Shown here: piece by piece, positions 6,470 through 29,690 of the stretch
Layout: the number at the start of each line of letters is the position of its first letter
Position numbering within the stretch: position 1 is the first letter of the stretch
From: Adhaeribacter arboris
GTDB lineage: Bacteria; Bacteroidota; Bacteroidia; Cytophagales; Hymenobacteraceae
Assembly (NCBI RefSeq): GCF_003023845.1
Contig: NZ_PYFT01000001.1
Span: 4,898,001 to 4,962,000, forward strand
DNA length: 64,000 nucleotides
Reading direction: 5' to 3'
Position numbers and translations under genes: made by a program
Notes under the pieces: generated by a model
What the model was told of the DNA's origin: nothing
The model's database searches: none
Seen by the model: the letters and a program-made list of their open reading frames with translations, nothing else

Positions 6470-8302
6470 ATGTTAGTATATGCCCGAATTTTCCGCTTCT
6501 TTTTACTTATTAGCCTGATAATTGGGCTTAATACTTTTTCATCTCAGGCCCAGAGTGCTGCGGAGGAAGAAGCTTTAGCGAAAACTTATTTACAGAAGCA
6601 AGAATATGATAAAGCAAGTTCTATTTATAACAAGCTTGCTTCTAATAACCAACAATTCGTTACTATTTATCCGGATTATCTTAAAACCCTTATGGCACTT
6701 AAAAACTATAAGGAGGCCGAAAAATTAGTAAAAAAAGCTATTAAAAAGAATCCGGAAATACCTGCTTTTACCATTGATTTAGGGGTAGTACAATTAGCTA
6801 GCGGCGATAAAAAAGCGGCCGATAAAACTTTTGATAAGACAATTGATCAGGCTAAACCAAATACTATTTTGCCGGTAGCTCAAGCCTTTGAGCAAAATCG
6901 GCTGTATGATTATGCCGAAAAAACTTATTTACAAGGACGTAAACTCAGCAAGAAAGAAACCGATTATACGGGTCAGTTAATGCAATTGTACGCTTACCAG
7001 CGCCAATCAGAAAAATTAATCGCCGAAATATTAAATATTGTCAGAGAAAATCCGGAACAGTTGCTGTTAGCCCAAAATATGCTGCAGAACAGCTTACGCG
7101 AAGAAAAAGAGTTTGAAGCTTTAGAGAAAATTTTGTTAACCAATGTGCAGCAAAACCCGGATAAGAACGTGTATAGCGAATTGCTAATTTGGGTGTATAC
7201 GCAACGGAAAGACTTTTTCAGCGCTCTGGTACAGGCCAAATCGTTGGATAAGCGTACCAAAGGTGGCGGCGAAAAAGTTATGGAATTAGGCGCTATTAGT
7301 CTAAAAAATAAAGATTACGAAAGTGCCATTGAAGCGTACAGCTACGTAATTAAAGAATACCGCAATAGTCCATATTATGGGTACGCGCGTGAACGCCTGA
7401 TTAAAGCCCGCGAAGAACAAGTACGCAATACCTTCCCGGTAGACTTAGCTAAAATTCGAACACTTATTGCCGAATACCAGAGCTTATTAGATGAGATAGG
7501 AAAAAACGGCCGTACCGCAGAAGTAATGAAAAATATGGCATCGTTACATGCCTTTTATTTAGATGAGAAAGATAAAGCCATTGCCCTTTTGCAGGAAGTG
7601 ATAAATACTCCCCGGGTCAATCAGGATTTAGTGGCCGAAGCAAAAATTAGTTTGGGAGATATTTATTTGTTACGCGGGGAACCTTGGGAGGCGACTTTGC
7701 TTTATTCGCAAGTCGAAAAATCGCACAAAGAAACGCCCATTGGTCATGAGGCCAAGCTGCGGAACGCTAAATTAAATTATTATAAAGGCGATTTTCAGTT
7801 AGCGCAGGAACACTTAGATATTTTAAAATTGGCCACTAGCCGCGAAATTGCCAACGATGCCATGGATTTAAGCCTGCTGATAACCGATAATACAGGTTTA
7901 GATTCTTCTACAGCCGCTTTAAAAGAATATGCTGCTACGGAGTTATTAATTTTTCAAAACAAATTACCCGAGGCCCAGCAACAGTTAGATAATATATTAC
8001 GAAAATATCCGCAACACAGTCTTACGGATGATATTTTCTTCCTGAAGGCTAAAGTGCATCTGAAAACCGGTAATTACCAGGATGCCATCCAAGATTTGAC
8101 TAAAATTACGGACAATCCGCAATATGATGTGCTCAGCGACGATGCTTTTTTTCTGCTGGCGACCATTTACGAAGAACAGGTAAAAGATCCGGAAAAAGCA
8201 AAGCAGCTTTATAATGATCTGATTGTAAAATATCCGGGTAGTATTTTTACGGTTGATGCCCGCAAACGCTTCCGTAAGTTGCGGGGTGATACGGTAAATT
8301 AG
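6470..8302 (+). CDS. secreted TPR-repeat protein
   Basis: About 610 residues with an N-terminal signal peptide (hydrophobic core then FSSQAQ) and at least ten TPR-like helix pairs, for example EEALAKTYLQKQEYDKASSI and VQLASGDKKAADKTFDKTID. The C-terminus resembles the outer-membrane lipoprotein / YbgF-like TPR end (AKQLYNDLIVKYPGSIFTVD). It is probably a periplasmic scaffold protein. An alternative TTG start at 6455 would add five residues. It converges with gluconokinase. No partner can be named from sequence. Confidence 0.8.
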   Translation: MLVYARIFRFFLLISLIIGLNTFSSQAQSAAEEEALAKTYLQKQEYDKASSIYNKLASNNQQFVTIYPDYLKTLMALKNYKEAEKLVKKAIKKNPEIPAFTIDLGVVQLASGDKKAADKTFDKTIDQAKPNTILPVAQAFEQNRLYDYAEKTYLQGRKLSKKETDYTGQLMQLYAYQRQSEKLIAEILNIVRENPEQLLLAQNMLQNSLREEKEFEALEKILLTNVQQNPDKNVYSELLIWVYTQRKDFFSALVQAKSLDKRTKGGGEKVMELGAISLKNKDYESAIEAYSYVIKEYRNSPYYGYARERLIKAREEQVRNTFPVDLAKIRTLIAEYQSLLDEIGKNGRTAEVMKNMASLHAFYLDEKDKAIALLQEVINTPRVNQDLVAEAKISLGDIYLLRGEPWEATLLYSQVEKSHKETPIGHEAKLRNAKLNYYKGDFQLAQEHLDILKLATSREIANDAMDLSLLITDNTGLDSSTAALKEYAATELLIFQNKLPEAQQQLDNILRKYPQHSLTDDIFFLKAKVHLKTGNYQDAIQDLTKITDNPQYDVLSDDAFFLLATIYEEQVKDPEKAKQLYNDLIVKYPGSIFTVDARKRFRKLRGDTVN

Positions 8303-8362
8303 ATGTAAGTTTTGACTTATTGCAAAGATGTAAGAACTCTGTTTTTTACGGTTTAACTTGCT

Positions 8363-9895
8363 CTAGCCTTGCAAAGCCGTAATGGCGGCAAAATCTTGTT
8401 TAAGCTTCGGGTACAAACCTTCGTATATAGCATATAATTGTTGGTAAACGGCGTGCTGCTCCGGGTTAGGCAAGTAAGTTCGGGCAATGGGTACTAGCTT
8501 ATCTATGGTTTCGAAATCCGAAATCATTCCTAACGCCTGCATACCTAAAATAACGGCTCCTAAGGCCGAACTTTCCACACTTTCGGTTACGCGAATTTCG
8601 TGATTAAAAATGTCCGCCAGCATTTGCACCCAAATGTCACCTTTCGCGAATCCTCCATTAGCGTAAATTACGTCTATTGGACCGGTAACTTGTATTAAAG
8701 CATTAGCAACGCTATATATGCCAAATAGAATGCCTTCGAGTAAGGCACGGAGTAAGTGTTCCCGGGTATGGCTTAAGTTTAAGCCAAAGAAAACGCCCCG
8801 GGCATTCGCATCCCAAATGGGGGCCCGTTCCCCGAGCAGGTAAGGTAAAAATAATAACCCATTGGCTCCGGCTGGTATAATAGCGGCCTTTTGCAAAAGA
8901 AGTTCATAAACATCCATCGCCAGATCTTTTGCTAACTGGGTTTCGGGCATACCAAACTGGTCGCGAAACCAGCTCAGTAAAATAGCTCCATTACTCACCG
9001 GTCCGCCCAGCACATAATGTTCGGGAGTTAAAATATAACTAAATATTCGTTCCTGGGAATCGGTAGCGGGCTCAGAAGAAATAACCCGAATGGCTCCGCT
9101 GGTACCAATAGTAAGGGCGGCATTACCCGGCCGGATGGCACCACTGCCCAGGTTAGCTAAACAGCCATCGCCACCGCCCAGAATAAATGGAACCTGCGGA
9201 TCAACCCCTAAATAGCTAGCTTGCTCAGCAGATAAACCACGGATAATATGGGTACAAGGTAAAGGAGTAGCTAAATGCTCGGGGGTAATACCGGCTGATT
9301 GTAGGGCGGGTGGATACCACTGCAAAGTAAAAATATCAAATAATCCCGTGGCCGAAGCAATGGAATAATCAATAACGTACTGCCCAAATAACCGGTAAAA
9401 TACATATTCTTTGATGGAGATAAACTTATGCGCCTGCTTTACTAATTCGGGTTGCTCGGCTTGCAGCCATACCAATTTGCATAAAGGCGACATGGAATGA
9501 ATGGGCGTACCTGTCCGGCGATAGATATTATGGCCGGCAGCACTGTTCTTTATTTGGTCGGCATATTCTTTACTACGGGTATCGGCCCAGGTAATGCTGT
9601 TGGTCAGTAAGTTCCCATTTTCATCTAAAGCAATTAAACTGTGCATGGCACTACTGAAACTAATGCCGGCTAAGCCAGCTAATGTAAAGCCAGTGGTTCG
9701 GGCCGCCGCGGTAACGGCGCTAATAGAATCTAACACCGCTTGAAATACTTCATCGGGGTTTTGTTCGCTGTAAGAAGGCTGCGGAGTAAGCAAAGGATAT
9801 TCCACCGATTTTTCAGCTAGTACGTGGCCTTGCAAATTAAAGCCAACGGCTTTTGTGCTGGTAGTACCAATATCAACCCCGATCATGTAGTGCAT
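8363..9895 (-). CDS. gntK: gluconokinase, FGGY carbohydrate kinase family
   Basis: A 510-residue FGGY sugar kinase. The N-terminal phosphate motif is GVDIGTTSTKAVGF (residues 6-19). The segment TPIHSMSPLCKL with the preceding WADTRS is characteristic of gluconate kinases, as opposed to xylulo- or glycerol kinases, and the C-terminal domain has LTIGTSGAIRV and ANGGFAKGDIWVQMLAD. It should convert gluconate to 6-phosphogluconate, feeding the pentose phosphate pathway. It stands alone, convergent with the TPR gene and divergent from a nucleoside-type permease. Xylulokinase is the main alternative annotation. Confidence 0.85.
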   Translation of the reverse strand: MHYMIGVDIGTTSTKAVGFNLQGHVLAEKSVEYPLLTPQPSYSEQNPDEVFQAVLDSISAVTAAARTTGFTLAGLAGISFSSAMHSLIALDENGNLLTNSITWADTRSKEYADQIKNSAAGHNIYRRTGTPIHSMSPLCKLVWLQAEQPELVKQAHKFISIKEYVFYRLFGQYVIDYSIASATGLFDIFTLQWYPPALQSAGITPEHLATPLPCTHIIRGLSAEQASYLGVDPQVPFILGGGDGCLANLGSGAIRPGNAALTIGTSGAIRVISSEPATDSQERIFSYILTPEHYVLGGPVSNGAILLSWFRDQFGMPETQLAKDLAMDVYELLLQKAAIIPAGANGLLFLPYLLGERAPIWDANARGVFFGLNLSHTREHLLRALLEGILFGIYSVANALIQVTGPIDVIYANGGFAKGDIWVQMLADIFNHEIRVTESVESSALGAVILGMQALGMISDFETIDKLVPIARTYLPNPEQHAVYQQLYAIYEGLYPKLKQDFAAITALQG

Positions 9896-15720: not shown

Positions 15721-16719
15721 CTACTTCTGTAATACCATTACATCATTCATCATAAAAGTAGTACCGGCGGCAGCTTCAATGTTATATACTTTTTGAACTC
15801 CGCCAGCGTATTCGGTTTTATGTAATACCGTGAAAGGTTCGTATTTGCCGGTTTTACTGTTGTAGCACAATACTTCTTCGCCTAAGTTAACTTCCCCCAT
15901 TTTGCGGTTGCCTTCGCGGGTTTGCATCGGGTGGTTAGGGGTGGCTTCCAGCACTTTGCTGCTTAAGTTTACCTCTTTCCCTGCTTGGCTCGTTTTTTCA
16001 GTGACACTAGCTACTAATAACCGGGTGATAGCATAGTTTTTAGCTTCGTGCGAAACCAACTCTTTTACGCGTACCGTAGTAGCTAATTTCGTAGCCGGAT
16101 CAATGGTTAATACCTGGTCGCCGGGTTGCACTTCTTTCAGTAGCTTTTGCCGGCCATTGGCCATGGCTACCAACTGGTCGCCGGGGAAGCAGATATCATT
16201 GCCATAAGTTGCCGATTCGGCTTTTAAGTCTTTGCCTTGGTTTAAAGCTTTATACTGCTGGAAGGATAATTCTTTCGACAGCACATAAGAGAGCTTCAGC
16301 ACAAAGTTTTTTTCTTCTTTATCTATGGCGTGAATGTCTTCGAAATAGCTTTCCCAAACTTTGCCATCGGTGGTAAAATTAGGCAGTACGGCTTTATATT
16401 GTTTGCCTTTTTCGTTGGTGTAAAATATCATCGTACCCAATTCCTGCATGCCCTCTTTGCTTACGAGTCTATACAGGTCCATGCGTTTTTTTAATCCATC
16501 ATCGCCGGTAATAAAATAAGGTTTCCGGCCTTCGTAACGATCCAGAATATAAGCGTTCTCAATTTTTACATAGGTATCGTTATCGAGGTCTTTTACCGCA
16601 AAGGTTTTAGCTTTTTGATATTCGGCTAAAGTTAAAGGGCGGGAAGTTCCGGTGCTTTGCTGAGCCTGCGCCAGGTGCATGGAGCCAATAAATAGGAACG
16701 ATAAGAAAATTCTGCGCAT
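15721..16719 (-). CDS. secreted Hint-domain (hedgehog/intein-type) protein
   Basis: 332 residues. A signal peptide (ending about residue 19, LAQAQ) precedes an N-terminal region of about 150 residues without a recognised fold. A Hint domain then runs from Cys177 (ICFPGDQLVAMANGRQ) to the end. Hint landmarks visible: nucleophile Cys177 followed by FPGD, the block-B-like TPNHP at 260-264 with His263, GEEVLCYN at 280-287, and a C-terminal strand VYNIEAAAGTTFMMNDVMV. The usual closing His-Asn of an intein is absent and only two residues follow, so this resembles a hedgehog-like or degenerate self-processing domain with no C-extein. Function unknown; exported. Confidence 0.75.
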   Translation of the reverse strand: MRRIFLSFLFIGSMHLAQAQQSTGTSRPLTLAEYQKAKTFAVKDLDNDTYVKIENAYILDRYEGRKPYFITGDDGLKKRMDLYRLVSKEGMQELGTMIFYTNEKGKQYKAVLPNFTTDGKVWESYFEDIHAIDKEEKNFVLKLSYVLSKELSFQQYKALNQGKDLKAESATYGNDICFPGDQLVAMANGRQKLLKEVQPGDQVLTIDPATKLATTVRVKELVSHEAKNYAITRLLVASVTEKTSQAGKEVNLSSKVLEATPNHPMQTREGNRKMGEVNLGEEVLCYNSKTGKYEPFTVLHKTEYAGGVQKVYNIEAAAGTTFMMNDVMVLQK

Positions 16720-16978: not shown

Positions 16979-18145
16979 CTAAGAAACTTGCCGGAAAGCC
17001 TCGGCGAATGCCTGCATCTCGTCCATGCGGCCAATACTTACGCGGCACCAGTCCTGATTATTAAATTTCCAGAAGCGTACGCCTACGCCGCGTTTCATTA
17101 ATTCAGCCGTAAATTTTTCGCCTTCCATTTTTATTGGAAACATCACAAAGTTGCTCGAAGAAGGAATGTATTCGTAGCCTTCTTTCTTCAACACATCGTA
17201 CAGGAAGTTTTTAGAAGCCAGGGTTTTCTTTAAAGCATCTTGCAAGAAAGCTTTATCTTGATAAGCTGCTAAAGCCGCTTGTACCGAAGGAGCGGAGATA
17301 CTCATACCACCGGCGGCATACTTACTTAATTCTTTTATTACGTCGGGTTGCGCAATAATATACCCTACCCGCAGACCAGCAAAGCCGTAAAGTTTAGAGA
17401 AGGTACGGGCAATAATTACGTTTTGTCCTTTTTTCACGCACTCCATCATCGAAGCAGCTTTAGGGTCCGGTAAATAATCAATGTAGGCTTCGTCTATAAA
17501 CACAGGTACTTTCTTCGATACTCTTTCGCAGAAAGCCGCTAATTTAGCGGTATCTACTACGGTGCCGGTGGGGTTATTCGGGTTACAGATGTACATTAAA
17601 GAAGTACTGCCATCCACCTTTTTTTCCATAGCGTCCAGGTCTAGCTTATACTCCGAAGTAAGCGGCACTTTGTTCCAGGTAGTATTAAAATCGGAGGCAT
17701 CGCGGGGTAAGCTGGCGTAGGTCGGGTCACCGGAAACAATATTGGAACCTTCTTTTTTGCTGTAATACATGGCGGCGGCCAACAACAAAGGCCCGGAACC
17801 GGCATCCATTAAGATATTTTCCAGCTTAACACCTTCGTAGTCCGCAATCTTCTGCGCCAGTTCCCGGGTATATTTCATGGGGTATTGGTAGCTGGTGTTC
17901 AGGGCATCCATGGCCGCTTTTTTAGCCTTTTCCGAAGGTCCAAAAGGATTTTCATTGGCATTTAGCCGAGCTTTGAGTTCGGCCGGAGCCCCCAGAATAA
18001 TACTTTCTTCCGTAACTTTCTTCTCGAGGGTACGGGCAGCGGGCTTAGCCACCAGCTGGTTTAGTGAGCCGGAAAAGAAGGTAAATCCTCCGGCTAAAAA
18101 AGCACTGGACTTAAGCCAGTTACGTCTGTTCATTGATTTTTCCAT
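16979..18145 (-). CDS. Tat-exported HisC-like PLP aminotransferase
   Basis: 388-residue fold-type I PLP aminotransferase of the histidinol-phosphate aminotransferase group, but with a twin-arginine signal at the N-terminus (MNRRNWLKSSAFLAGG, residues 5-20). Core motifs: NENPFGPS (64-71), ICNPNNPTG (187-195) with the cofactor-contacting Asn, FIDEAY (216-221) with Asp218, and the Schiff-base lysine Lys251 in FSKLYGFAGLRVGY. The Tat signal suits an enzyme exported after folding around PLP. It is therefore unlikely to be the biosynthetic HisC and more likely transaminates amino acids in the periplasm. It lies 65 bases downstream of the flavin amine oxidase on the same strand, probably in one operon. 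Confidence 0.88.
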   Translation of the reverse strand: MEKSMNRRNWLKSSAFLAGGFTFFSGSLNQLVAKPAARTLEKKVTEESIILGAPAELKARLNANENPFGPSEKAKKAAMDALNTSYQYPMKYTRELAQKIADYEGVKLENILMDAGSGPLLLAAAMYYSKKEGSNIVSGDPTYASLPRDASDFNTTWNKVPLTSEYKLDLDAMEKKVDGSTSLMYICNPNNPTGTVVDTAKLAAFCERVSKKVPVFIDEAYIDYLPDPKAASMMECVKKGQNVIIARTFSKLYGFAGLRVGYIIAQPDVIKELSKYAAGGMSISAPSVQAALAAYQDKAFLQDALKKTLASKNFLYDVLKKEGYEYIPSSSNFVMFPIKMEGEKFTAELMKRGVGVRFWKFNNQDWCRVSIGRMDEMQAFAEAFRQVS

Positions 18146-18210: not shown

Positions 18211-19803
18211 TTAACCGTTGTTACTGGTAACCGGGTATTTTACTCTTTGCTCGGCAACGCGGGAATGTACCGCCGCTACTGCGCTCCTCGCCGATTCAAA
18301 GGCTCCGGCCATCCAGGCGGTTAAATAAGTGGTGTGCTCGCCGGCAAAATATACGTTCTGGTCTGGTTTCAGCAGGGCGGGGTAAAGAGTTTTGCGGGCT
18401 TCGCTGTTGTAAACGGCCCAACCGCCCATGTTGTACTTAGTCTTATGCCAGCTCACCGAAAACGAAGTTTCAAACTCTTGTTTGTACTGCGGATGAATTA
18501 AGCTGCCTTTTTCTAAAGCTAGTTTTTCCCGGTCGGCCATGGATAAGTCGCCTACCGTTTTGGCTTTTTCGTTGAAGTTGTAATAACCAATAAGTATCCC
18601 TTTTTTACTTAAGTAATCGTAAGAAGGATAAAAAATCTGGGTAAGCTCGTTGTTGGTGTGGGTAATGCCCCCGTAAATTTGCTCGTCTTCTTCCCAGAAA
18701 CGGCGTTTAAACTGCAACCCCATTTTACCGGTCTGGATATACGGCACAAAATCAATGGCCCGGCTTACTTCCGAAGCAAAATTATGATTAACGTTGCTCA
18801 GTATTGGCAAAGGCAAGGTGCAGATGCAGATATCACCTTTCATTTCGTGCTCGCCTTGCTTATCTTTATACGTTATTTTTACACCGTCCGGAACATTTAA
18901 AATAGATTTTACTTCTGTACCTAATTTTAACGAACTAATAACTTTCTTTTCCAGAGCCTTGGCAATGTTATCCATACCGCCTACTGCCTGGAACATCGTC
19001 ATTTGTAGTTCATAGGTGTATTCGGCTACATTATAAAAGTCCGGATCTAACAATCCTGATTGAATGATATCGGCTAATTTGTGCGGATCGGCTATTTTTC
19101 CGGATTTCTCGCCGGCACCCGGCGATTCAATATACCCGCGGCGGGCCGATGCTTTATATAACTTATCAATGTCCAAACCCCCTTCGGCGCGCAGGTATTC
19201 AATTACTTTGGCAGCATCTTCTTTATTTAAAGCTAAATCTAATTTTTCCTGGTCCAGCGCTTTGGCGAGTAATTCGCTCATATAACCGCGCATGTCGTTG
19301 TGAATTTCGCGGGCGCGTACCTTTTTATTAGATAAAGGGCCTTTGCCTTCGCTGAAGTAATAAGTGCCTTCGTTTACATTATTGTATACCTCTAGGGGTA
19401 CTCCTAATTCTTTGCAATAATGCATGGTAAGTTGGTGGTGGTGCGGAATCCGGGAAGGACCGGCATTATAATACAAACCCGCATCAAAATTAGCGGTAAG
19501 CATTGGCCCATCTCCCTCCTGGTTAGTGGAGCCTTTTCGGATGCTCCAACAACGACCGCCGGAACGATTGCGGGCTTCTAAAATAGTAGTGCGGTAACCT
19601 AATTTATTTAACTCGTAAGCGGATGCCATGCCAGCTAAACCACCACCCAAAATTACTACGTGTTTGCCTTTACCATCACCGGATAAGTTAAACGCATGAG
19701 CCGGAGCACTGGGTAGTAAACCTAAAGCCATCATGGCCGGATAAGCGCTCCCGGCAAGTAAAGCACTTTTACTTAAAAAAGCTCTTCGGGATAGATGTCT
19801 CAA
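18211..19803 (-). CDS. Tat-exported flavin amine oxidase (L-amino-acid/monoamine oxidase type)
   Basis: 530 residues. Tat signal SRRAFLSKSALLAGS (residues 5-19), then the dinucleotide-binding ILGGGLAGMASAYEL (51-65) with ILEARNRSGGRCW (74-86), the Glu and Gly pattern of monoamine-oxidase-like flavoproteins. The C-terminus carries VYFAGEHTTYLTAWMAGAFE, the FAD-closing motif with the GEHT. The family oxidises primary amines or L-amino acids to imines with release of hydrogen peroxide. It is divergent from a secreted RidA gene (293 bases) and upstream of the HisC-like gene. Substrate unknown: L-amino acid versus amine cannot be decided here. Confidence 0.9.
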   Translation of the reverse strand: MRHLSRRAFLSKSALLAGSAYPAMMALGLLPSAPAHAFNLSGDGKGKHVVILGGGLAGMASAYELNKLGYRTTILEARNRSGGRCWSIRKGSTNQEGDGPMLTANFDAGLYYNAGPSRIPHHHQLTMHYCKELGVPLEVYNNVNEGTYYFSEGKGPLSNKKVRAREIHNDMRGYMSELLAKALDQEKLDLALNKEDAAKVIEYLRAEGGLDIDKLYKASARRGYIESPGAGEKSGKIADPHKLADIIQSGLLDPDFYNVAEYTYELQMTMFQAVGGMDNIAKALEKKVISSLKLGTEVKSILNVPDGVKITYKDKQGEHEMKGDICICTLPLPILSNVNHNFASEVSRAIDFVPYIQTGKMGLQFKRRFWEEDEQIYGGITHTNNELTQIFYPSYDYLSKKGILIGYYNFNEKAKTVGDLSMADREKLALEKGSLIHPQYKQEFETSFSVSWHKTKYNMGGWAVYNSEARKTLYPALLKPDQNVYFAGEHTTYLTAWMAGAFESARSAVAAVHSRVAEQRVKYPVTSNNG

Positions 19804-20096: not shown

Positions 20097-20567
20097 ATGA
20101 AAAAGTGTTTTTGCTTCTCCTGTTTAGCCGTAATACTATCTACTTCCGTAAGTTTCGGGCAGAATACCTCTCACCAGAACCAGCCTTTAAAAAAAATTAT
20201 TAAAACCGAGCAGGCGCCTCAGCCCATAGGACCTTACAGCCAAGGCGTATTAGTTGATGGGTTTTTATTTGTTGCCGGCCAGGTGGGAGTTAATCCGCAA
20301 ACCCGGCAGTTAACTGCCACGAGTTTTGAGGCAGAAATCACTCAGGTATTGGAAAATTTGCAGGCTATATTAAAAGGAGCCGGCATGGATTTCCGGAACG
20401 TGGTGAAGGCCACTATTTACTTAAAAGATTTAACCCATTTTGCAAAGGTAAATGAGGTTTACGGCAAATATTTTACGGTAGAGCCTCCGGCCCGCGAAAC
20501 CGTGCAGGTATCTAACTTACCCAGCAATGCCAACGTGGAGATTTCGGTTATTGCGGCGATGCATTAG
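20097..20567 (+). CDS. exported RidA-family imine/enamine deaminase
   Basis: 156 residues. An N-terminal signal (hydrophobic stretch to about SFGQN, residue 23) precedes a full RidA/YjgF domain: QAPQPIGPYSQGVLV (39-53), FVAGQVGVNP (58-67) and PARETVQVSNLP (131-142). Arg133 is the substrate-binding arginine and Glu148 sits in VEISVIA. RidA hydrolyses reactive 2-imino acids and enamines made by PLP enzymes and amino-acid oxidases. Most RidA proteins are cytosolic; a signal peptide places this one with the exported oxidases and aminotransferases on either side. It is transcribed divergently from the amine oxidase and convergently with the class V enzyme. Confidence 0.9.
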   Translation: MKKCFCFSCLAVILSTSVSFGQNTSHQNQPLKKIIKTEQAPQPIGPYSQGVLVDGFLFVAGQVGVNPQTRQLTATSFEAEITQVLENLQAILKGAGMDFRNVVKATIYLKDLTHFAKVNEVYGKYFTVEPPARETVQVSNLPSNANVEISVIAAMH

Positions 20568-20828: not shown

Positions 20829-22160
20829 TTATTTGCTATTGGTGCGGTTGGCGGCGGTTACGTTTCCTTTGGCAATGGCGTGAATCGTATTTACCAGGCG
20901 GTCTAAATCTTTTAAAGGCGTGTACAAGTGCGGGGTAATCCGTACGCCGCTAATATTTTCCCACACGGTAGCCGAGGTATGAATGCGAGACCGTTTAAAT
21001 AATTCAGTGGCAACTTCGCCGGGAGCCAGCCCTTTAATCGCAAAAGTGGCAATAGCGCCGGAAAATTCGGGTTTAAGCGAAGTAATGGTAGAAAAACCCG
21101 GAATGCTCAAGCATTTTTCTACCCAGTAATTTTTTAAATAATGCAACCGTTTTTGTTTGCGCTCAATGCCAATGGTATTATGAAAATTAATGGCGTGCCC
21201 AATGGCCATTTCGGTAGGAAAGGAGCGGGTACCCAGCCTTTCAAACTTGCGGATATCGGGGCTTTGCGGATCTTCGGGAGCGAACATAGGCCAAACATCT
21301 TTAATGCGGGCTTGCTTAACGTAGAGCATGCCCGTGCCAAAGGGGCAGCAAAGCCATTTGTGCAGGCTGGTGCCGTAGTAATCGCCTTCTAAATCCGGAA
21401 TTTTGTAGTTGATATGCGCAAAAGAATGGGCCCCATCAATTACTACTTGAATGGCTGGATTGTGTTTTTTAGCCGCCCGGCTGATAAGTGCCGCTGGCAT
21501 AATTTGTCCCGACCAGTTAATCATGTGGGTAATCATTACGGCTTTGGTCTGAGAAGAAAACGCCTCTTTGTATTGGCGCACAATTAGCTGGTTATCTTCA
21601 ATGGGCAAATCCAGGTTGATAAATTTAAGAACAATACCCTCGCGTTTTTCTCTTTGCTTCCAGGCGTTGATTACGTTTGGGTAGTCTTGCTTAGTGAGAA
21701 CTACTTCATCGCCGCGCTGCAGGTTGATGCCAAAAATGATGGTTTCCAGTGCTTCGCTGGCATTGCGGTTAATAGCCAATTCTTCGGGAGAGCAGCCAGC
21801 TAAGTCGGCTAATTTCATCCGCACCGATTCGCGGGCTTCGTCTAAAGTACGCCACATATAATAACTAGGCGCTTCGTTGCTTAACCGGTTATATTGATCC
21901 AGCGCATTTTGTACCACGATGGGTTGGGGACTTACCCCGCCATTGTTCAGGTTAATTACATTAGGCGAAGCCGAATAAGCCTGCTGAATATAGCCCCAAA
22001 AATCTTCGTCTTTGGTTACGTCTTCGGTAGCAGTTACAGCGGGAATGTGTAAACCTGTTTCCTTTTGCCAGGCCGCCAAAGCGGGGCTTACCGTTAGCAC
22101 ACCAGCAAAACTGCCTATTGTTTTAACAAAATTCCTGCGGGAGTTAAGGTTTTCTGGCAT
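20829..22160 (-). CDS. Tat-exported class V PLP enzyme, isopenicillin N epimerase-like
   Basis: 443 residues. The Tat signal SRRNFVKTIGSFAG (residues 7-20) precedes a class V aminotransferase fold. It has INLNNGGVSPQP (69-80) at the substrate side, NRNASEALETIIFG (131-144) binding the cofactor phosphate, VIDGAHSFAH (240-249) with Asp242, and Lys268 in GTSLHKWLCCPFGTGML as the PLP lysine. Closest recognisable group is the isopenicillin N epimerase / cysteine desulfurase-like subfamily, which contains epimerases, desulfurases and lyases, so the reaction is not fixed. Epimerisation of an amino acid would fit the D-amino-acid-oxidase-like gene upstream on the same strand, 632 bases away across a repeat. 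Confidence 0.86.
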   Translation of the reverse strand: MPENLNSRRNFVKTIGSFAGVLTVSPALAAWQKETGLHIPAVTATEDVTKDEDFWGYIQQAYSASPNVINLNNGGVSPQPIVVQNALDQYNRLSNEAPSYYMWRTLDEARESVRMKLADLAGCSPEELAINRNASEALETIIFGINLQRGDEVVLTKQDYPNVINAWKQREKREGIVLKFINLDLPIEDNQLIVRQYKEAFSSQTKAVMITHMINWSGQIMPAALISRAAKKHNPAIQVVIDGAHSFAHINYKIPDLEGDYYGTSLHKWLCCPFGTGMLYVKQARIKDVWPMFAPEDPQSPDIRKFERLGTRSFPTEMAIGHAINFHNTIGIERKQKRLHYLKNYWVEKCLSIPGFSTITSLKPEFSGAIATFAIKGLAPGEVATELFKRSRIHTSATVWENISGVRITPHLYTPLKDLDRLVNTIHAIAKGNVTAANRTNSK

Positions 22161-22792: not shown

Positions 22793-23920
22793 TTAACTCC
22801 GCATTCCTACTAAAGCTTCATTTATAGCCGCAATTACCGTTTTAGTTTGTTCCGGATTAGGAGTCGTGTTCCAATTATTCCGAATGGCATTACCGCCCAG
22901 CACTAAACCGTCTTTGCGGGGGATAATATACCCGTGCGGGGTGCTTAACCGGTAATTAATTTCGGGCTGCGGAATTAAAAAAGATAACTGACCTGATATC
23001 GGCATTAATTGTTCGTCGTTAAACAAAGCTTTGGCACCTAAGCCGGTACAATTCACCACGCCATCTTCCCATAAAGCATCTAGGTCTTCTAAAGTTTTAA
23101 ATTCTTTTATCTGAACTTTACCGCCAAAATTTAAAAAATCGGTGGTAAGGTGGTGCAGGTACGACGGGATATTAAAAACCATGTTGGGCTGGTTCACCAC
23201 ATTTTTAGATTTAAACGGGTGCTCGCGCCGGGATAACTCTTTCGGTTCGGGCAGTAATCCGTCTATATGCAGTTTAGGAGTTTCGGAAGGAGCTCGGCCA
23301 TTAATAATGTAATGATCCATCCAGGTAACTAAATCGCCATAGCCCAATAAGTTTTGATACGTTTGAAACGAATAGGAACAGGCTTGTTCCCACATGGTCT
23401 TAAACTCCGGGGTAATGTATTCCTCTTCGCAAAGTAAATGCGACGGCGACCAGGTGCCGGTAGCCATGCTGGAAGTAATTTTAGGAAACATTTCTTTGGC
23501 GTAGATGGTAACGGTTTTACCCATTTGCTGGAGCAAACGAGCCGTAGTTAGACCAACAATACCGCAACCTATTACCGCAATTTCCTGGTGGCCCGTAGCA
23601 GCGGCACGCGTAGCCGCAATTTGCCCGGTTCCCCACGACAACGAAAAACCACTGCCACCGTGGCCATAATTATGCACAATCGTTTTCTGGCCCAGCATTT
23701 CCACATCTAACCGTGGGCCGGAGAGCCGGTACGGACGAAGCCCAACTGTTTCTTTAATAATCCGGTCGGGAGAAAGCTTAACCCGGGGTAAACGACGAGC
23801 ACCTAAAGAAGTAGAGCTGCCTCGGTAAAGATTATTGCCCGGAGAGCAGGAGCTAACGCCCATGGCAAACGCTAGCCCTAATGAAGCTCCGGATTTTAAA
23901 AGAAAAGATCGCCGATCCAT
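22793..23920 (-). CDS. Tat-exported lipoprotein D-amino-acid-oxidase-like flavoenzyme, circularly permuted
   Basis: 375 residues. The Tat signal DRRSFLLKSG (2-11) is combined with a lipobox VSSC (Cys25), so a Tat lipoprotein. All D-amino-acid oxidase (DAAO) landmarks are present but in rotated order. Residues 54-105 match the usual DAAO C-terminus (ETVGLRPYRLSGPRL, then VHNYGHGGSGFSLSWG). The FAD motif AVIGCGIVGLTTA, which should be N-terminal, starts at 114, VNCTGLGAKALF is at 289-300, and GYIIPRKDGLVLGGN (330-344) is followed by a short helix and the stop. Arg62 aligns with the substrate arginine (Arg283 of mammalian DAAO) and Tyr331 with Tyr228, so an active enzyme on D-amino acids or glycine is plausible. 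It lies 30 bases after the small lipoprotein gene of the susCD operon. Confidence 0.85.
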   Translation of the reverse strand: MDRRSFLLKSGASLGLAFAMGVSSCSPGNNLYRGSSTSLGARRLPRVKLSPDRIIKETVGLRPYRLSGPRLDVEMLGQKTIVHNYGHGGSGFSLSWGTGQIAATRAAATGHQEIAVIGCGIVGLTTARLLQQMGKTVTIYAKEMFPKITSSMATGTWSPSHLLCEEEYITPEFKTMWEQACSYSFQTYQNLLGYGDLVTWMDHYIINGRAPSETPKLHIDGLLPEPKELSRREHPFKSKNVVNQPNMVFNIPSYLHHLTTDFLNFGGKVQIKEFKTLEDLDALWEDGVVNCTGLGAKALFNDEQLMPISGQLSFLIPQPEINYRLSTPHGYIIPRKDGLVLGGNAIRNNWNTTPNPEQTKTVIAAINEALVGMRS

Positions 23921-23950: not shown

Positions 23951-24391
23951 TTATTTGACCTGCACGCGGCCGGTTTTAGTAAAGGCTTGTCCTTTGTAGT
24001 TGCCCGACCATTCCAGCACCACTGAATTGCCTACGGCCGGAGCAGTTATACCTAAGTCAGCCCAGGTTTTATTTAAGGTAACCGTACCGGCTGCATCAGT
24101 AGTTAATTCGGCCAAAGTATTGTTATTTAATAGTACCTTAATGGGCAGGTTAGAAACCGGTAGGGTATCAATGCCTACCGAATGATCCAGAATGCCGCTT
24201 TTATTTAGCTCGGCAATGGTAGTGGTAACCATTACGGGTTCCGTGGCTAAAAAACTGTTGCCGGTAACCGTAACCAATACCGGCGATACCACTCGGTCTA
24301 CTACTAATTCGTCTTCTTTTTCGCAGCTCATTAAAAAGAAACTGAACCCGAACAAAACCGCGAATAATTTATTTATAGCATTTATTTTCAT
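23951..24391 (-). CDS. small lipoprotein of the susCD operon
   Basis: 146 residues. The signal peptide ends in LMSC (Cys23), followed by EKEDE; acidic residues right after the lipid-bearing Cys match the Bacteroidota surface-export signal, suggesting display on the cell surface. The rest is predicted beta-rich, with VTVTGNSFLATEPVMVTTTI and a C-terminal VLEWSGNYKGQAFTKTGRVQ, resembling an Ig-like or carboxypeptidase-regulatory-like fold. It lies 141 bases downstream of the SusD gene and 30 bases upstream of the DAAO-like gene. It is probably an accessory ligand-binding subunit; no family recognised. Confidence 0.75.
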   Translation of the reverse strand: MKINAINKLFAVLFGFSFFLMSCEKEDELVVDRVVSPVLVTVTGNSFLATEPVMVTTTIAELNKSGILDHSVGIDTLPVSNLPIKVLLNNNTLAELTTDAAGTVTLNKTWADLGITAPAVGNSVVLEWSGNYKGQAFTKTGRVQVK

Positions 24392-24532: not shown

Positions 24533-26002
24533 TTACTCTGCCCACCACATTTTGGTCTTTTTGTCGTCGGAACCGCCATTTAAGGAAATACCGGCATCTA
24601 ATTGGGTTTTATTTAAGGAATACTCGGTAGAGGGATATTGCAAGCGGGTAGGTAATACACCATCGTTTAAGAAAATAGCTCTTGGATCAGGCGCTGGTAA
24701 AGCGGGGTAACCAGTGCGGCGGAATTCAGTCCAAGCCTCAATTCCTTGACCAAATAAGGCAATCCATTTTTGAGTAAGTATATTTTCTTTGGTAGCGGGG
24801 CCGGCATTAGCTAAATAATCAGCGGGCATGGTTAAACCGTATTGGCCGAAAGAGGCCGCAATGGCTTGCTCGTAATAGCTTTGGGCATCGCCGGCTATAT
24901 CACCATCCAGCGCCGCTTCGGCTAAGGTAAAGAGAAGCTCCGAATAACTCATGATAACGCTGGGCGTAGTGGTTTGTAAAAAGTAAGTGCCAATTTTAGC
25001 ACTGGAAGCTAAATAAGTAGTGGCAATGGCATCGGGTAAGCCGTTCGGAATGCCCATGTACTGGTTGTTTACCGGCTGTCCGTAAATTGCTAAGCGCGGG
25101 TCGTTGAGGGCTTGCAGTTTATCTACTAAAGTTTTGCTTAAATTCCAGTCGGTGCGGCTTTCCTGGACCATTACCTGGTTCCACTCGTTGTTGCTGGGTA
25201 AACCATTGGCATTTTTCAGGACGGCATAATCGGAGTTGCTGGTGAATACGGGATATTTAACGGGATCCGCCAGAATCTCCGCCATAATTGCCTGTGATTC
25301 GGCTGGTTTTTTAGCGGCTTGCCGGTTAGCTAGTTTTAAGCGCAAAGAATTTGCAAATTTCTTCCACATCTCAATATTGCCACCGAACATAATATCGCCG
25401 GAAATAGCCGGACCACCTACGGTTAACTTCTCGTTGGCTAGTTTTAAGTCGTTCAGTAAACCGGCGTAAACTTCTTCCTGCGAATCGTATTTAGGCGTGT
25501 AAATAGGAGTAGTGGCCGTTCCCTGTAAGGCTTCGGTGTAAGGAATAGCGCCGTAAATATCCGTTAACAGCGAGAACACCCAGGAGCGCATCACCAAACC
25601 TACTCCCTCATAATTAGTGTTGGGCGCGGTACCTTCCGGCCCGGATTGAACTATAATTCGTTGAAAATTTAGCAGTGCATCGTTGTAAAAGCCTTTCCAG
25701 TTATTGGTGTAATAAGCCGGGCTCATGTTGTAGTTGTCCCCTTCGTCGGAATAAATGTTCCGGGCCAAATATTGTACCCACAACATGCCGCCATCCAGGT
25801 TAATACGTTCGAACCGAGCCCGGTGACCCCAGTAACGATCGACGCTCGACTCGATGCCGTTAGGCAACAGTACGGCTGAACTTACCTCCGAAGGCTTGTT
25901 CGGGCTAACATTCATTTCTTCGAAGTTTTTGGTGCAGGCACTGGCTAAAAAAGCTCCGGCTACCAAATAAGTCGCGATTTTTATTTTAGAAGATATTTTC
26001 AT
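24533..26002 (-). CDS. SusD/RagB-family nutrient-binding outer-membrane lipoprotein
   Basis: 489 residues from the ATG at 26002; the frame is open 74 codons further upstream, but only the start at 26002 gives a proper lipoprotein signal (MKISSKIKIATYLVAGAFL, lipobox ASAC). The mature protein begins CTKNFEEMNVSPNKPSEV, typical of the SusD-like_2 branch, with TPR-like helices such as SYSELLFTLAEAALDG and the closing YPSTEYSLNK region. It caps the SusC pore and captures ligand at the cell surface. The SusD-like_2 branch includes peptide-linked as well as glycan-linked systems, so the neighbouring amino-acid enzymes guide the substrate guess. It lies 142 bases after susC. Confidence 0.9.
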   Translation of the reverse strand: MKISSKIKIATYLVAGAFLASACTKNFEEMNVSPNKPSEVSSAVLLPNGIESSVDRYWGHRARFERINLDGGMLWVQYLARNIYSDEGDNYNMSPAYYTNNWKGFYNDALLNFQRIIVQSGPEGTAPNTNYEGVGLVMRSWVFSLLTDIYGAIPYTEALQGTATTPIYTPKYDSQEEVYAGLLNDLKLANEKLTVGGPAISGDIMFGGNIEMWKKFANSLRLKLANRQAAKKPAESQAIMAEILADPVKYPVFTSNSDYAVLKNANGLPSNNEWNQVMVQESRTDWNLSKTLVDKLQALNDPRLAIYGQPVNNQYMGIPNGLPDAIATTYLASSAKIGTYFLQTTTPSVIMSYSELLFTLAEAALDGDIAGDAQSYYEQAIAASFGQYGLTMPADYLANAGPATKENILTQKWIALFGQGIEAWTEFRRTGYPALPAPDPRAIFLNDGVLPTRLQYPSTEYSLNKTQLDAGISLNGGSDDKKTKMWWAE

Positions 26003-26051
26003 GGTAATAAAGTCTGTTTTTGGAAAGTAAAGAAATACAAGTAGCTGGCTC

Positions 26052-26114
26052 TCCTCATCCCCAGGCTTTCCCTGGTGAGAGAAAGCCCGAATGAAAGTTT
26101 TGCAAGGATGAGGA
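26052..26114 (-). promoter_or_regulatory. structured susC-susD spacer
   Basis: Within the 142-base spacer, TCCTCATCC (26052-26060) pairs with GGATGAGGA (26106-26114), enclosing CCAGG/CCTGG (26061-26075) and further GC pairs. The RNA from the minus strand would fold into a branched hairpin between the two cistrons. It lacks a T run, so it is more likely a stability or processing element than a terminator. Confidence 0.45.
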
Positions 26115-26144
26115 TTACACGAGAGAGACTTATAAGAGAAATTT

Positions 26145-29100
26145 TTAAAATTTAAGGTCCAGGTTAACTCCAAAGCTCCGGCTGTTAGGTAACTGACCGT
26201 AAGTGAAACCTTGGGCATTACCACCCTGCGAGTCTATTTCCGGGTCGATGTGCGGCGTATTTTTGAACAGGATAGCCATGTTGCGGCCTACCAGCGATAT
26301 CCGGACAGATTGCGCTTTGATTTTACCGGTTAAGAAGGCTGGTAACTGATAACCTAAGCTTACTTCCCGTAATTTCACGTAACTGGCATCGAAGATTGCC
26401 GATTCATGGTAGGTACGCGGGTTGTTATAGCTATAGAAAAGCTTGGCATCGGCAATTACATCGTTAGGAACGTAAACCGGCGCATCGGCGGTGCCTATGT
26501 TTTTTACCCCTTTACCAATTACCCCTTCTTCCCGACCAACGGCAGTTTCCGCATATTGTCCGGTCCAGCGGGCTGTTCCGGTTCCTTCGTCAAAAATATC
26601 ACCTCCCTTTCTGATGTCAATTAAAGCGCTTAGCGATAATCCTTTGTAAGTAAAGGTGTTCGAGATACCGCCAATCCAGTCGGGTTGAATATTGCCTAAT
26701 ACTTTCTGACCGGGTGCTACCAAAGGAGTTCCCAGTACTTTATCGTACACAATCTGGCCATCGGGCGAGCGTAAAAACGCCGTGCCGTAGAAAGTGCCGT
26801 AAGGCTGACCTACCCGCGCTTCGGAGGAAAGCCCCCGGGTGGTGTACAAGGTATACGTGGTTAAGCCTTCGGCTAATTCTACTACTTGGCTGCGGTTGCG
26901 CGCATAGTTAAGCGCTATTTCCCACTGGAAGCCATTGGCTAATTGCACCGGCGTACCGGTCAGCATTATTTCTACGCCTTTATTCGTAACTTCCCCGGCA
27001 TTTAAAAAGCGGCGGTTGTAGCCCGTAGCTTTCGAGATTTCTACCCCCAGAATCTGATCTTTGGTGCTTTTGGTGTAATAAGTGGCATCTAAACCAATTC
27101 TTCCGGCCAGAAATCGAATATCAGCGCCCACTTCCTGACCCGTGGTAATTTCGGGTTTTAGCGCGGCATTATTAATATCGGTACTTTCGCCGAAGCTAGG
27201 AATAGCTCCGTTCCAGGGCGATTTAGCATCGTAAACTTGATAAAGTTGATACGGGTCCGCATCGTTACCAACCTGGGCCCAACTGGCTCTTACTTTGGCA
27301 AAAGATAAGACCTTGTTGCTGATGCCTAATAAATCGGTAACTACCGCACTCAAGGAAACCGATGGATAGAAGAAAGAATTCTGATTTATCGGCAAGGTGC
27401 TGGACCAGTCATTCCGGCCGGTAACATCCAAAAACAAGGAGTTCCGGAAACCAAACTGAGCCGCCGCAAAAAGGCTTTGCACGTTAAATTCCTGAATTTC
27501 GCTTTGGTTGGTATTAGGACTGGCATTATTGTTTAAGGTGTATAACCTATCGATTACTAATTGCTCTACTTGAGCAAAGTTGCGCTTGTAATAATTGTTG
27601 CGGTAAATACCACCGGCTTGGCCGCTAAAAGAAAAGTCCGGTCCAAAATCCTGCTTGTAGGTCAGCATTATATCGTGGTTCGTTTCCTGGCTGCGCAGTA
27701 TTTCTTCGTTATATTGGCCGGCCCGGAAGTTACCATTCGAAATCCGTTCGAAGCGGGTTACATTTATCCGGGTATCACTCCAGAAATCGGTACCGCTTCG
27801 TACCATTAAGCTTAATTTATCATTAAAATCATAGGATAGCGACATATTGCCCCGTAAGCGGTCTTTGTCGTTGGCGTTGGTTAAAAATTCCTGTTCGTAA
27901 AAAGGATTGGTAAAAAAAGTATGTTGCCAGTTGGGCGGTAAATTATCCCCCGGTTTCTGAATGCTTACTCCCACGTAATCGCGCCAGTTTTTTAGCTGAT
28001 CCCAGGATACCGAACGGTGCGACCAGATAAATTCCTGACCCGATTGGTACGAGCGGTTATCAGAACCAGATTTAATGTATTCGGCACTTACGTTCGCTTT
28101 TAATTTGGGAGTAAGATTATAAGAAGAGCTTAAGTTAACGTTGTTACGTTTAAAATCGTTATTAAACATAATACCCGTTTGGTCCATACGCCCCACTGAC
28201 AGCCGGAAGCTACCTTTATCGTTGCCCCCGACCAGAGCAATGGAGTTAAAGAAAGTATGACCAGTTTCCCAGTATTCATCCCAATTGTTTGGCTGAGGGG
28301 TTAAAGGTGCTACACCGGTACCTGTCCACCATTGCCGTACCAAACGGCCATCCATGGGGGCGCCCCAGCTTTCGTCGGTTCCTTCGGTACCATTAAGGGG
28401 AGCGTTAGGCCCGTAAGCTGCCCGGTATTGCTCTATTTCCAGAGGGTCCGTTATTGCTCCGCTGCGGCCATTATTATACCAGGTACGGTAACCGTTACCG
28501 CCCCCGTAGGTGTTTTGGAAATTTGGCTTTACCAATGGTCTTTCAAAAGTAGCACTGGAACTAATCTCTACCCCAATACCTTTGGTACCAGAGCCATTTT
28601 TAGTGGTGATTAATATAACGCCGTTGGCGGCGCGGGAGCCGTAAAGAGCCGCTGCATTCGGTCCTTTCAAAACCGAAATAGACGCAATGTTATCCGGGTT
28701 TACTTCAGAAATACCTCCGCCATAACGGCTTTCGTTTTTCGTCCGCAATCCAGTAACCGGGTCTACTCCCAAGGTATTAGCCTGTTGAATAGGTACTCCA
28801 TCTACGACTATCAACGGCTGATTATTCCGGCTCACCGAACCCATTCCTCGGATAACAATATTAGAACTACTGCCCGGACCACCGTTGCTATTTACTTGTA
28901 CCCCGGCTACCCGGCCTGATAAATTGTTTACCACGTTAGAAGTTTTAACTTCAGCCAGTTTACTGCCGCTTACTTCTTGTATGGTATAACCTAAAGCTTT
29001 TTTCTCTCTTTCAATACCAAAAGCGGTAACTACTACCTCGCCTAGTTGTTTCGCGTCGGTGGTCATGCTCACGTTCAGACTGGTTTTTCCGGCTACCGCT

Positions 29101-29339
29101 AATTCCTGCGTGGCATAACCGATAAAAGAAAAAACCAAAGTACTGGTCGGAGGGCATTCTAACGTATAAACCCCGTCGGCATTGGTAACGGTACCTTGCG
29201 AAGTGCCTTTTACGAGTACGGTTACTCCTGGCAATGGAATGTCTGCTTCGGAAACCTTGCCCGAAACTTTTATCTGTTGCGCCAGGGTGGGCGAAATGGC
29301 CAGCAGCACAAGAGCGTATAAGAGTAATAATCGTTTCAT
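26145..29339 (-). CDS. SusC/RagA-family TonB-linked outer-membrane transporter
   Basis: 1064 residues from the ATG at 29339, chosen because it begins a clean signal peptide (MKRLLLLYALVLLAI...TLAQQ). An in-frame start 42 bases upstream exists. A carboxypeptidase-D-like regulatory domain follows (about 22-100, with VSGKVSEADIPLPGVTVLVK), then the TonB-box-like GEVVVTAFG and the plug with IVVDGVPI and LKGPNAAALYGSRAANGVI, and a 22-stranded barrel ending SFGVNLDLKF. It imports ligand with energy from TonB together with SusD. First gene of the minus-strand operon that continues to susD, a small lipoprotein and the DAAO-like enzyme. Confidence 0.93.
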   Translation of the reverse strand: MKRLLLLYALVLLAISPTLAQQIKVSGKVSEADIPLPGVTVLVKGTSQGTVTNADGVYTLECPPTSTLVFSFIGYATQELAVAGKTSLNVSMTTDAKQLGEVVVTAFGIEREKKALGYTIQEVSGSKLAEVKTSNVVNNLSGRVAGVQVNSNGGPGSSSNIVIRGMGSVSRNNQPLIVVDGVPIQQANTLGVDPVTGLRTKNESRYGGGISEVNPDNIASISVLKGPNAAALYGSRAANGVILITTKNGSGTKGIGVEISSSATFERPLVKPNFQNTYGGGNGYRTWYNNGRSGAITDPLEIEQYRAAYGPNAPLNGTEGTDESWGAPMDGRLVRQWWTGTGVAPLTPQPNNWDEYWETGHTFFNSIALVGGNDKGSFRLSVGRMDQTGIMFNNDFKRNNVNLSSSYNLTPKLKANVSAEYIKSGSDNRSYQSGQEFIWSHRSVSWDQLKNWRDYVGVSIQKPGDNLPPNWQHTFFTNPFYEQEFLTNANDKDRLRGNMSLSYDFNDKLSLMVRSGTDFWSDTRINVTRFERISNGNFRAGQYNEEILRSQETNHDIMLTYKQDFGPDFSFSGQAGGIYRNNYYKRNFAQVEQLVIDRLYTLNNNASPNTNQSEIQEFNVQSLFAAAQFGFRNSLFLDVTGRNDWSSTLPINQNSFFYPSVSLSAVVTDLLGISNKVLSFAKVRASWAQVGNDADPYQLYQVYDAKSPWNGAIPSFGESTDINNAALKPEITTGQEVGADIRFLAGRIGLDATYYTKSTKDQILGVEISKATGYNRRFLNAGEVTNKGVEIMLTGTPVQLANGFQWEIALNYARNRSQVVELAEGLTTYTLYTTRGLSSEARVGQPYGTFYGTAFLRSPDGQIVYDKVLGTPLVAPGQKVLGNIQPDWIGGISNTFTYKGLSLSALIDIRKGGDIFDEGTGTARWTGQYAETAVGREEGVIGKGVKNIGTADAPVYVPNDVIADAKLFYSYNNPRTYHESAIFDASYVKLREVSLGYQLPAFLTGKIKAQSVRISLVGRNMAILFKNTPHIDPEIDSQGGNAQGFTYGQLPNSRSFGVNLDLKF

Positions 29340-29690
29340 AAATTTTTTAATTTTGATAAGGTGTTGTTTTTGTGTAGACAAGTAATAGACAGACAGCTAT
29401 TTAATTATTTAAATAACGTGGCTTCCCTTTCCGGCGAAAGGACTTAAAACGTAGATCAGAATTCTGGTACTATTGCTAAATCACAGGCAATAGTTGTCTG
29501 GCTCCGGGCAAAAAGCGCCTGAGAATAGCAATTAACCAAGAATATAGAGTGCGAAAGAGCAAGTAGAATCAATCCATATTCTGGAATTGATTAAAACAGC
29601 AAAAAGCTCTTGCAAGCAGTACCAATAATTAGGGTTGGTATTGTTTTTAGGTGATAAATTAGTTGAGGTACAAAATTGATTTAGAAATGC

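Follow-up and report, generated by a model that had tools for sequence, protein, structure and literature searches.

D-amino-acid oxidase (DAAO) is a textbook flavoenzyme of industry, neuroscience and redox biology whose chain order is taken as fixed, and the question raised by this locus is whether a gene of Adhaeribacter arboris encodes a member of the DAAO lineage in which that order has been rearranged. The window, which is the whole stretch of 64,000 nucleotides analysed here, carries at 22793-23920, on the minus strand and counting the stop codon, an open reading frame (ORF) of 375 amino acids (P0001 in the ORF list and its translation). The initial annotation, which claimed a DAAO-like enzyme with swapped domain order, had located this ORF exactly, although its strand was missing, and the positions it gave for the motifs GLRPYR, HNYGHGGSG, AVIGCGIVG, VNCTGLG and GYIIPR were all correct on the translation. 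From N to C terminus, the protein consists of MDRRSFLLKSG...VSSC25, a linker, and then these five motifs in the order just given.

The claim of a swapped order was borne out by phmmer searches of the PDB, in which both segments of the window protein match the same DAAO or D-aspartate oxidase (DASPO) chains, in reversed order. For human DASPO (6rkf), residues 112-364 align with chain positions 13-265 (i-E 1.2e-14) and residues 55-105 with positions 280-333 (i-E 3.2e-7); for the Rasamsonia DAAO (7ct4), residues 110-360 align with positions 22-295 (i-E 9.8e-7) and residues 54-102 with positions 320-368 (i-E 2.2e-8). The Pfam DAO profile (PF01266) covers residues 114-369 (E 5.9e-29). For a wider view of segment order, two profiles, one for the cap segment and one for the main segment, were built from permuted and ordinary sequences together and used to score every ORF of at least 250 amino acids in the loci. 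Eighty-eight distinct DAO-family ORFs passed; the cap stands ahead of the main segment in 49 and behind it in 39, the latter comprising 34 ordinary DAAOs and 5 DadA-like proteins. The 49 permuted ORFs, which include the window gene (as L003) and its close relatives and are non-independent, leave out L138 and L139 (permuted, found later), L064 (frameshifted) and L140 (broken by stop codons). A second DAAO tail segment elsewhere in the chain, considered a counter-indication by the initial annotation, was seen in none of the 88 ORFs (two cap matches above 3 bits, 0/88; one ORF had a second match of 0 bits). In the permuted ORFs, 0-9 residues separate the cap from the main segment and 0-21 follow the main match, so the breakpoints coincide or nearly coincide in all of them. 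These sequence comparisons support the view that the window protein is a circular permutation of the DAAO lineage, with the following parts:

22793..23920, minus strand: putative circularly permuted DAAO-family flavoprotein (Pfam DAO, E 5.9e-29; two-segment swapped match to PDB DAAO/DASPO chains)
23846..23920, minus strand: residues 1-25, Tat-type signal DRRSFLLKSG and lipobox VSSC with predicted lipidated Cys25 (pattern match only)
23597..23761, minus strand: residues 54-108, DAAO C-terminal segment (GxRPxR, YGHGGxG), now first (PDB matches, cap half-HMM)
23726..23743, minus strand: GLRPYR, residues 60-65, Arg62 being the Arg283 counterpart (Arg in 49/49 permuted and 33/34 ordinary ORFs)
23648..23674, minus strand: HNYGHGGSG, residues 83-91 (Tyr85, His87, Gly88 and Gly89 in 49/49 permuted ORFs)
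22796..23587, minus strand: residues 112-375, DAAO N-terminal and middle segment (FAD Rossmann and substrate domain), now second (6rkf match, Pfam DAO)
23552..23578, minus strand: AVIGCGIVG, residues 115-123, FAD GxGxxG fingerprint (three Gly in 49/49 permuted ORFs)
23036..23056, minus strand: VNCTGLG, residues 289-295 (Asn290 in 47/49 and Gly293 in 49/49 permuted ORFs)
22916..22933, minus strand: GYIIPR, residues 330-335, Tyr331 being the Tyr228 counterpart (Tyr in 22/49 permuted and 30/34 ordinary ORFs)

The gene looks to be under purifying selection, with dN/dS values of 0.079-0.084 against four close relatives (Nei-Gojobori), which are only rough because dS, at 1.5-2.4, is near saturation. 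Gly118, Gly120 and Gly123 of the GxGxxG fingerprint, together with Arg62, Pro63, Arg65, Tyr85, His87, Gly88 and Gly89, are kept in every one of the 49 permuted ORFs; L139, outside this set, has GHET instead of GHGG, departing at the last two positions. Tyr228 and Arg283 are described as the substrate-positioning residues of DAAO in excerpts of PMC6003678, and the proposal that both are kept stands for the window protein, but across the permuted ORFs only the arginine is constant, the position of Tyr331 being occupied by Tyr in 22, Asn in 15, Ser in 10, Glu in 1 and Ala in 1 of the 49. Since the tyrosine is replaced in 27 permuted ORFs, some of these enzymes may have other substrates. The counterpart of Tyr228 is retained in 30 of the 34 ordinary ORFs, and the same looseness at this position in ordinary DAAOs appears in excerpts of a published survey (PMC9844085).

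The initial annotation had also proposed a search for the same order in other Bacteroidota, where it was indeed found, as well as in Alphaproteobacteria, an actinobacterium and IMG/VR contigs. A search of 390 genomes from the same taxonomic order with the window protein gave 59 matches at E <= 1e-10, spread over 57 genomes, and 44 of the 59, from 42 genomes with 7 family codes and at 43-100% identity, consisted of one alignment running from query residue 42 or earlier to residue 366 or later, a course that only the permuted order should produce. All 37 of these through-matches that were re-read as ORFs are permuted, the other 7 being counted by alignment range alone, and one of the 44 (G082, L140) is broken by 8 stop codons. 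Further matches in the same taxonomic order, in genomes G222 and G038 (loci L138 and L139), were permuted on reading, and two Adhaeribacter relatives of the window protein, at two loci, share 76 and 71% identity with it (one-sequence query against genome contigs); if the window belongs with them, the taxonomic order is Cytophagales. An even draw across the phylum gave the permuted form in 3 of 395 genomes (G000, G010 and G529; E <= 1e-8 and ORF test) and an even draw across the class in 4 of 395 (G000, G010, G849 and G1022; E <= 1e-20), the two draws overlapping. Plasmid records with the permuted form came from Niveispirillum, Kozakia, Rhizobium, Bradyrhizobium, Mesorhizobium (frameshifted) and Nonomuraea, and IMG/VR contigs with it were L080 and L081/L082; four further scans of viral contigs yielded no rows for the structure alignment beyond the divergent L080 and L081. 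The permuted branch is thus present in at least three phyla, Bacteroidota, Pseudomonadota and Actinomycetota, and its known range beyond Bacteroidota should be read as a minimum, because other phyla were sampled only via plasmid records and viral contigs. Where the plasmid records annotate these genes, they are called 'FAD-dependent oxidoreductase', and the permuted proteins look like an old, working bacterial family under a generic name.

Several individual loci deserve mention. The permuted oxidase of Mesorhizobium onobrychidis plasmid pOM4 (L064, 5926-6989) is annotated as two genes, its frame break lying inside GxGxxG and not at the junction between the halves, and genome G204 carries a tandem pair of permuted oxidase genes (L009, 1483-3960). 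Divergent permuted oxidases occur in the 1.2 Mb genome G038 (L139, 4935-6170), with an ankyrin-repeat-like gene nearby as judged by eye, and in the fragmented 2.7 Mb genome G222 (L138, 2725-3951). On an IMG/VR contig (L082, 2965-4059), the permuted oxidase adjoins a phage terminase gene, as a provirus edge or as cargo. The viral contigs L083-L086 encode relatives of D-amino acid dehydrogenase, L083 scoring 448.7 bits against that family's cut-off of 494 and L084-L086 being 54% identical to L083.

The phylogenies point to a single origin. When 34 permuted and 31 ordinary rows (65 in all, after thinning of 18 near-duplicates, 15 permuted and 3 ordinary) are placed in one tree with the segments set in one common order, one branch separates all permuted from all ordinary rows with support of 97/84; the same branch is recovered from the main segment alone with junction-adjacent columns removed (97/87) and from the 51 columns of the cap alone (SH-aLRT 83). 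The 5 DadA-like ORFs, excluded from the unrooted sets, served only as outgroup in a tree of 63 rows, for which 7 more permuted rows were thinned to leave 27, and here the permuted rows form a clade (97/89) placed among the ordinary DAAOs, the ordinary rows not being a clade, which indicates that the permuted form is the derived one. The permutation is apparently ancient and arose once as far as the sample goes. Independent permutations in different phyla were also considered, and the trees do not need them. Less sure is the place in the permuted clade of the Bacteroidota side group L051/L088/L092, whose branch is very long, at 2.84 changes per column in the 65-row tree and 2.42 in the 63-row tree. 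That this one clade has members in Bacteroidota, Pseudomonadota and Actinomycetota suggests that the permuted gene spread horizontally across phyla.

A Tat signal and lipobox at the new N-terminus, also claimed at the outset, are present by pattern (DRRSFLLKSG...VSSC25, with twin arginine, hydrophobic stretch and cysteine), and by this the window protein should be Tat-exported and lipid-anchored. The motif RRx[FLMIV] precedes the cap in 44 of the 49 permuted ORFs, 42 of the 49 having a permissive lipobox, whereas not one of the 34 ordinary DAAO ORFs has it ahead of the FAD motif. The five permuted ORFs lacking it are L125 and those of Rhizobium, Bradyrhizobium, Nonomuraea and L081, the last four forming one branch (100/93), and L138 and L139, also permuted, have no Tat motif at their start as judged by eye. 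The permutation and the Tat signal are therefore linked in this sample but not inseparable. Besides, a Tat-signal amine oxidase of the window (18211-19803) carries its signal ahead of an N-terminal FAD motif, so Tat export requires no permutation. The suggestion that the permutation was selected for the sake of the signal thus finds support in the co-occurrence, but it is weakened by the Tat-less permuted branch and by this amine oxidase. The best reading is that the window protein would be a periplasmic lipoprotein acting as an amino-acid oxidase or dehydrogenase.

Structure prediction, at low confidence, agrees with the family assignment. AlphaFold gave a mean pLDDT of 52.7 and a pTM of 0.54 with five alignment rows, which included the divergent L080 and L081 and from which the dehydrogenase relatives L083-L086 were kept out, and a mean pLDDT of 32.3 with three rows, both too low for a superposition on DAAO. 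The five-row model predicts a C-terminal helix, and, in or near its better parts, strands at 70-76 and 79-85, a helix at 92-108 and a strand at 113-117, an order of elements that would be expected if the old C-terminal helix now continues into the FAD strand. The 32 best Foldseek matches in the PDB are all DAAO or DASPO (E 2.4e-9 to 2.2e-7), with query TM scores of 0.37-0.43 and an rmsd of about 10 A; as Foldseek aligns in sequence order, this result supports membership of the DAAO family and not the permuted packing.

The genes around the oxidase offer hints of its role, and the relevant neighbours in the window are the following:

26145..29381, minus strand: SusC-like TonB-dependent transporter (PF07715, PF00593, PF13715)
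24533..26224, minus strand: SusD-like outer-membrane lipoprotein (PF12771, E 6.8e-99; longest ORF, true start may be internal)
23951..24391, minus strand: small lipoprotein-like protein, 30 bp upstream of the oxidase (no Pfam match at 1e-5; relative in 6/30 loci including the window)
20829..22160, minus strand: Tat-signal class V aminotransferase-fold PLP enzyme (PF00266, E 7.7e-36; relative in 7/30 loci including the window)
20097..20567, plus strand: putative exported RidA-family enamine/imine deaminase (PF01042, E 5.7e-39; TIGR00004, 162 bits, above the cut-off of 106.25)
18211..19803, minus strand: Tat-signal flavin amine oxidase (PF01593, E 2.8e-53)
16979..18145, minus strand: Tat-signal HisC-like aminotransferase (PF00155, E 5.9e-55; hisC 259.7 bits, under the cut-off of 276.55)

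The SusC, SusD, small lipoprotein, oxidase and class V PLP enzyme genes all run in one direction, the last having as its nearest NCBIfam model the periplasmic pyoverdine-tailoring enzyme PvdN (143.6 bits against a cut-off of 650), and beyond it come the RidA-family gene, the flavin amine oxidase and the HisC-like aminotransferase. Further along, at 15721-16719 on the minus strand, lies a gene for an exported protein with a Hint (hedgehog/intein-like) domain (PF01079, residues 170-299), with relatives in L111, L112 and L125. The neighbourhood was surveyed in 30 chosen, related loci of 5-24 kb, the window included, 20 of them from the window's taxonomic order (2 from genome G072). A RidA-family gene lies near the permuted oxidase in 12 of these 20, as confirmed by a profile run over all 30 loci, which found no such ORF in the other 8 or in the 10 remaining loci. 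Five of the 12 are of the window's kind, 1.8-2.7 kb from the oxidase, and seven are of a second kind, divergently placed, with spacings that range from an overlap of 14 bases to a gap of 179 bp. All 12 encoded proteins match PF01042, seem by eye to start with a signal peptide and retain one arginine, which we take to be the catalytic arginine of RidA. The window genome has 4 PF01042 genes in 7.25 Mb, so about 1% of 20-kb stretches would contain one by chance; the count does not represent 12 independent events, the loci being related and the set chosen. Outside Bacteroidota, the row in Kozakia consists of a DadA relative, a PF00144 hydrolase, an S9 peptidase, the permuted oxidase and, directly after it, a cytochrome c, and in Rhizobium a berberine-bridge-type oxidase precedes the permuted oxidase and a ThDP enzyme follows it, nearest to indolepyruvate/phenylpyruvate decarboxylase (222.1 bits, under the cut-off of 554.5); Bradyrhizobium has the same gene order, with the ThDP enzyme in the same place. 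A 2-oxo-acid decarboxylase downstream of an amino-acid oxidase would make sense as a pairing, and the Kozakia, Rhizobium and Bradyrhizobium loci likewise fit amino-acid oxidation. In locus L124, 5-oxoprolinase pxpABC-like genes (by eye; 6691-9015) lie just upstream of the permuted oxidase, and an ORF downstream clusters with the rhizobial ThDP enzymes.

Taken together, we consider it probable, at roughly 0.78, that the window protein belongs to a naturally circularly permuted line of DAAO which was rearranged once, diversified and spread, and whose Bacteroidota form is an amino-acid-oxidising Tat lipoprotein. In a remote ancestor, the tail of an ordinary DAAO, starting shortly ahead of GLRP, would have moved in front of the FAD domain. 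A short linker at about residues 105-112 would have joined the former termini, and the new ends would have arisen past the helix that follows YIIP and ahead of the GLRP strand. In its new order the gene would then have diversified and spread across phyla, and in Bacteroidota a Tat/lipoprotein signal would have been fused to the new N-terminus, by which the protein should acquire its fold and its FAD in the cytoplasm, be translocated in the folded state and remain anchored by lipid. Arg62 would bind the substrate carboxylate, hydride would pass to FAD and an imino acid would be released, for the exported RidA-family protein to hydrolyse to a 2-oxo acid and ammonium; O2 would accept the electrons of FADH2, a part that a cytochrome c perhaps plays in some relatives. 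What the sequences themselves show is the swapped order and its conservation, one origin within this sample, selection, retained motifs and the neighbouring genes, while export, lipid anchor, fold, substrate, electron acceptor and passage between phyla are inferred.

How the rearrangement came about bears on this account without competing with it. Circular permutation is well known, and excerpts of PMC3320104 give as its routes duplication, or fission followed by fusion. That a DAAO gene was split and re-fused in the other order, instead of being duplicated in tandem and trimmed, is plausible at somewhat less than even odds: duplication should pass through a protein with two caps, and none is present among the 88 ORFs, but a natural two-gene form was likewise not seen among the loci, the split gene of L064 being due to its frame break within GxGxxG, and the event is so old that intermediates may be lost. 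A different and highly improbable account would make the front segment an unrelated domain with a chance likeness to the DAAO tail, or the whole gene a rearranged pseudogene. Nothing was found in its favour, the AlphaFold model (pLDDT 52.7) being too poor to place the segment, and chance similarity is ruled against by the significance of the front-segment matches to 7ct4 (2.2e-8) and 6rkf (3.2e-7), as well as by the constancy of Arg62, Pro63, Tyr85, His87, Gly88 and Gly89 in 49/49. Decay is made improbable by the 49 cap-first ORFs, their residue conservation and the dN/dS of about 0.08, and the original description as a functional circular permutation rather than decay is supported by these 49 of 88 ORFs, by their grouping on a single branch or clade and by the same dN/dS.

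Harder to set aside, though still unlikely, is that the permuted DAAO fold has been repurposed as an exported flavin dehydrogenase which passes electrons to a respiratory acceptor rather than O2 and acts on something other than a free D-amino acid, such as an imino acid, the N-terminal residue of a peptide or a siderophore-like compound. The replacement of Tyr228 in 27 of the 49 permuted ORFs, the cytochrome c gene directly after the oxidase in Kozakia, the distant resemblance of the window's PLP enzyme to PvdN (143.6 of 650 bits) and the upstream SusC/SusD pair, suggestive of the import of larger molecules, would all fit such a change; yet the carboxylate-binding arginine is present in 49/49, the RidA-family neighbours point to an imino-acid product, and excerpts of PMC9844085 describe Tyr228 as not conserved in ordinary DAAOs either. 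We retain the permuted, amino-acid-oxidising DAAO descendant as the preferred reading. A broader proposal comes tentatively close to an even chance, namely that the single ancient permutation founded a second, mainly extracytoplasmic DAAO branch, Tat-exported, lipid-anchored and paired with exported RidA, which feeds a periplasmic deamination module whose PLP and flavin enzymes are exported as well; if so, it would be the N-terminus newly created on the cap that made membrane anchoring possible. In any case, a natural permuted branch provides ready proteins for testing how the fold tolerates new ends, and its Tat and non-Tat members are a testable case for why the permutation became fixed. Possible new oxidases may also be concealed under the name 'FAD-dependent oxidoreductase', and the pairing with exported RidA points to periplasmic imine chemistry.

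Among known systems, the natural permutations of saposin and swaposin, transhydrogenase and the cpRAS GTPases are events of the same kind in other folds (excerpts of PMC3320104 and PMC2430557), and neither that material nor the matches listed includes a DAAO or other oxidase. CIRPIN reports thousands of permuted pairs according to excerpts of PMC12667903, in whose main text the word 'oxidase' has 0 occurrences, and a described permuted DAAO was not found in open-licence full texts among the matches listed, which is weak evidence of novelty. Of the related flavoenzymes, glycine oxidase ThiO (TIGR02352) is the best NCBIfam match of the window protein, in two stretches of swapped order that reach 65 bits, far under the curated cut-off of 250.8, and DadA (NF001933), an amino-acid-oxidising member of the DAO superfamily, gives 25.3 bits against a cut-off of 383, with the best stretch in the region of the FAD motif. 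The closest likeness is to DAAO and DASPO (6rkf, 7ct4 and 2du8), with which the window protein shares both segments, GxGxxG, GxRPxR, YGHGGxG, the counterpart of Arg283 and, for its own sequence though in only 22 of the 49 permuted ORFs, that of Tyr228, GxRPxR and YGHGGxG being marks of bacterial DAAOs in excerpts of PMC9844085. The published DAAO search rule in the same excerpts requires the FAD motif at the N-terminus, whereas in the window protein the fingerprint begins at residue 115 and the GxRPxR/YGHGG segment, last in DAAO, comes before it. Since the order was tested and differs, we do not class the window protein as an ordinary DAAO, but by its sequence it descends from DAAO and probably works like one.
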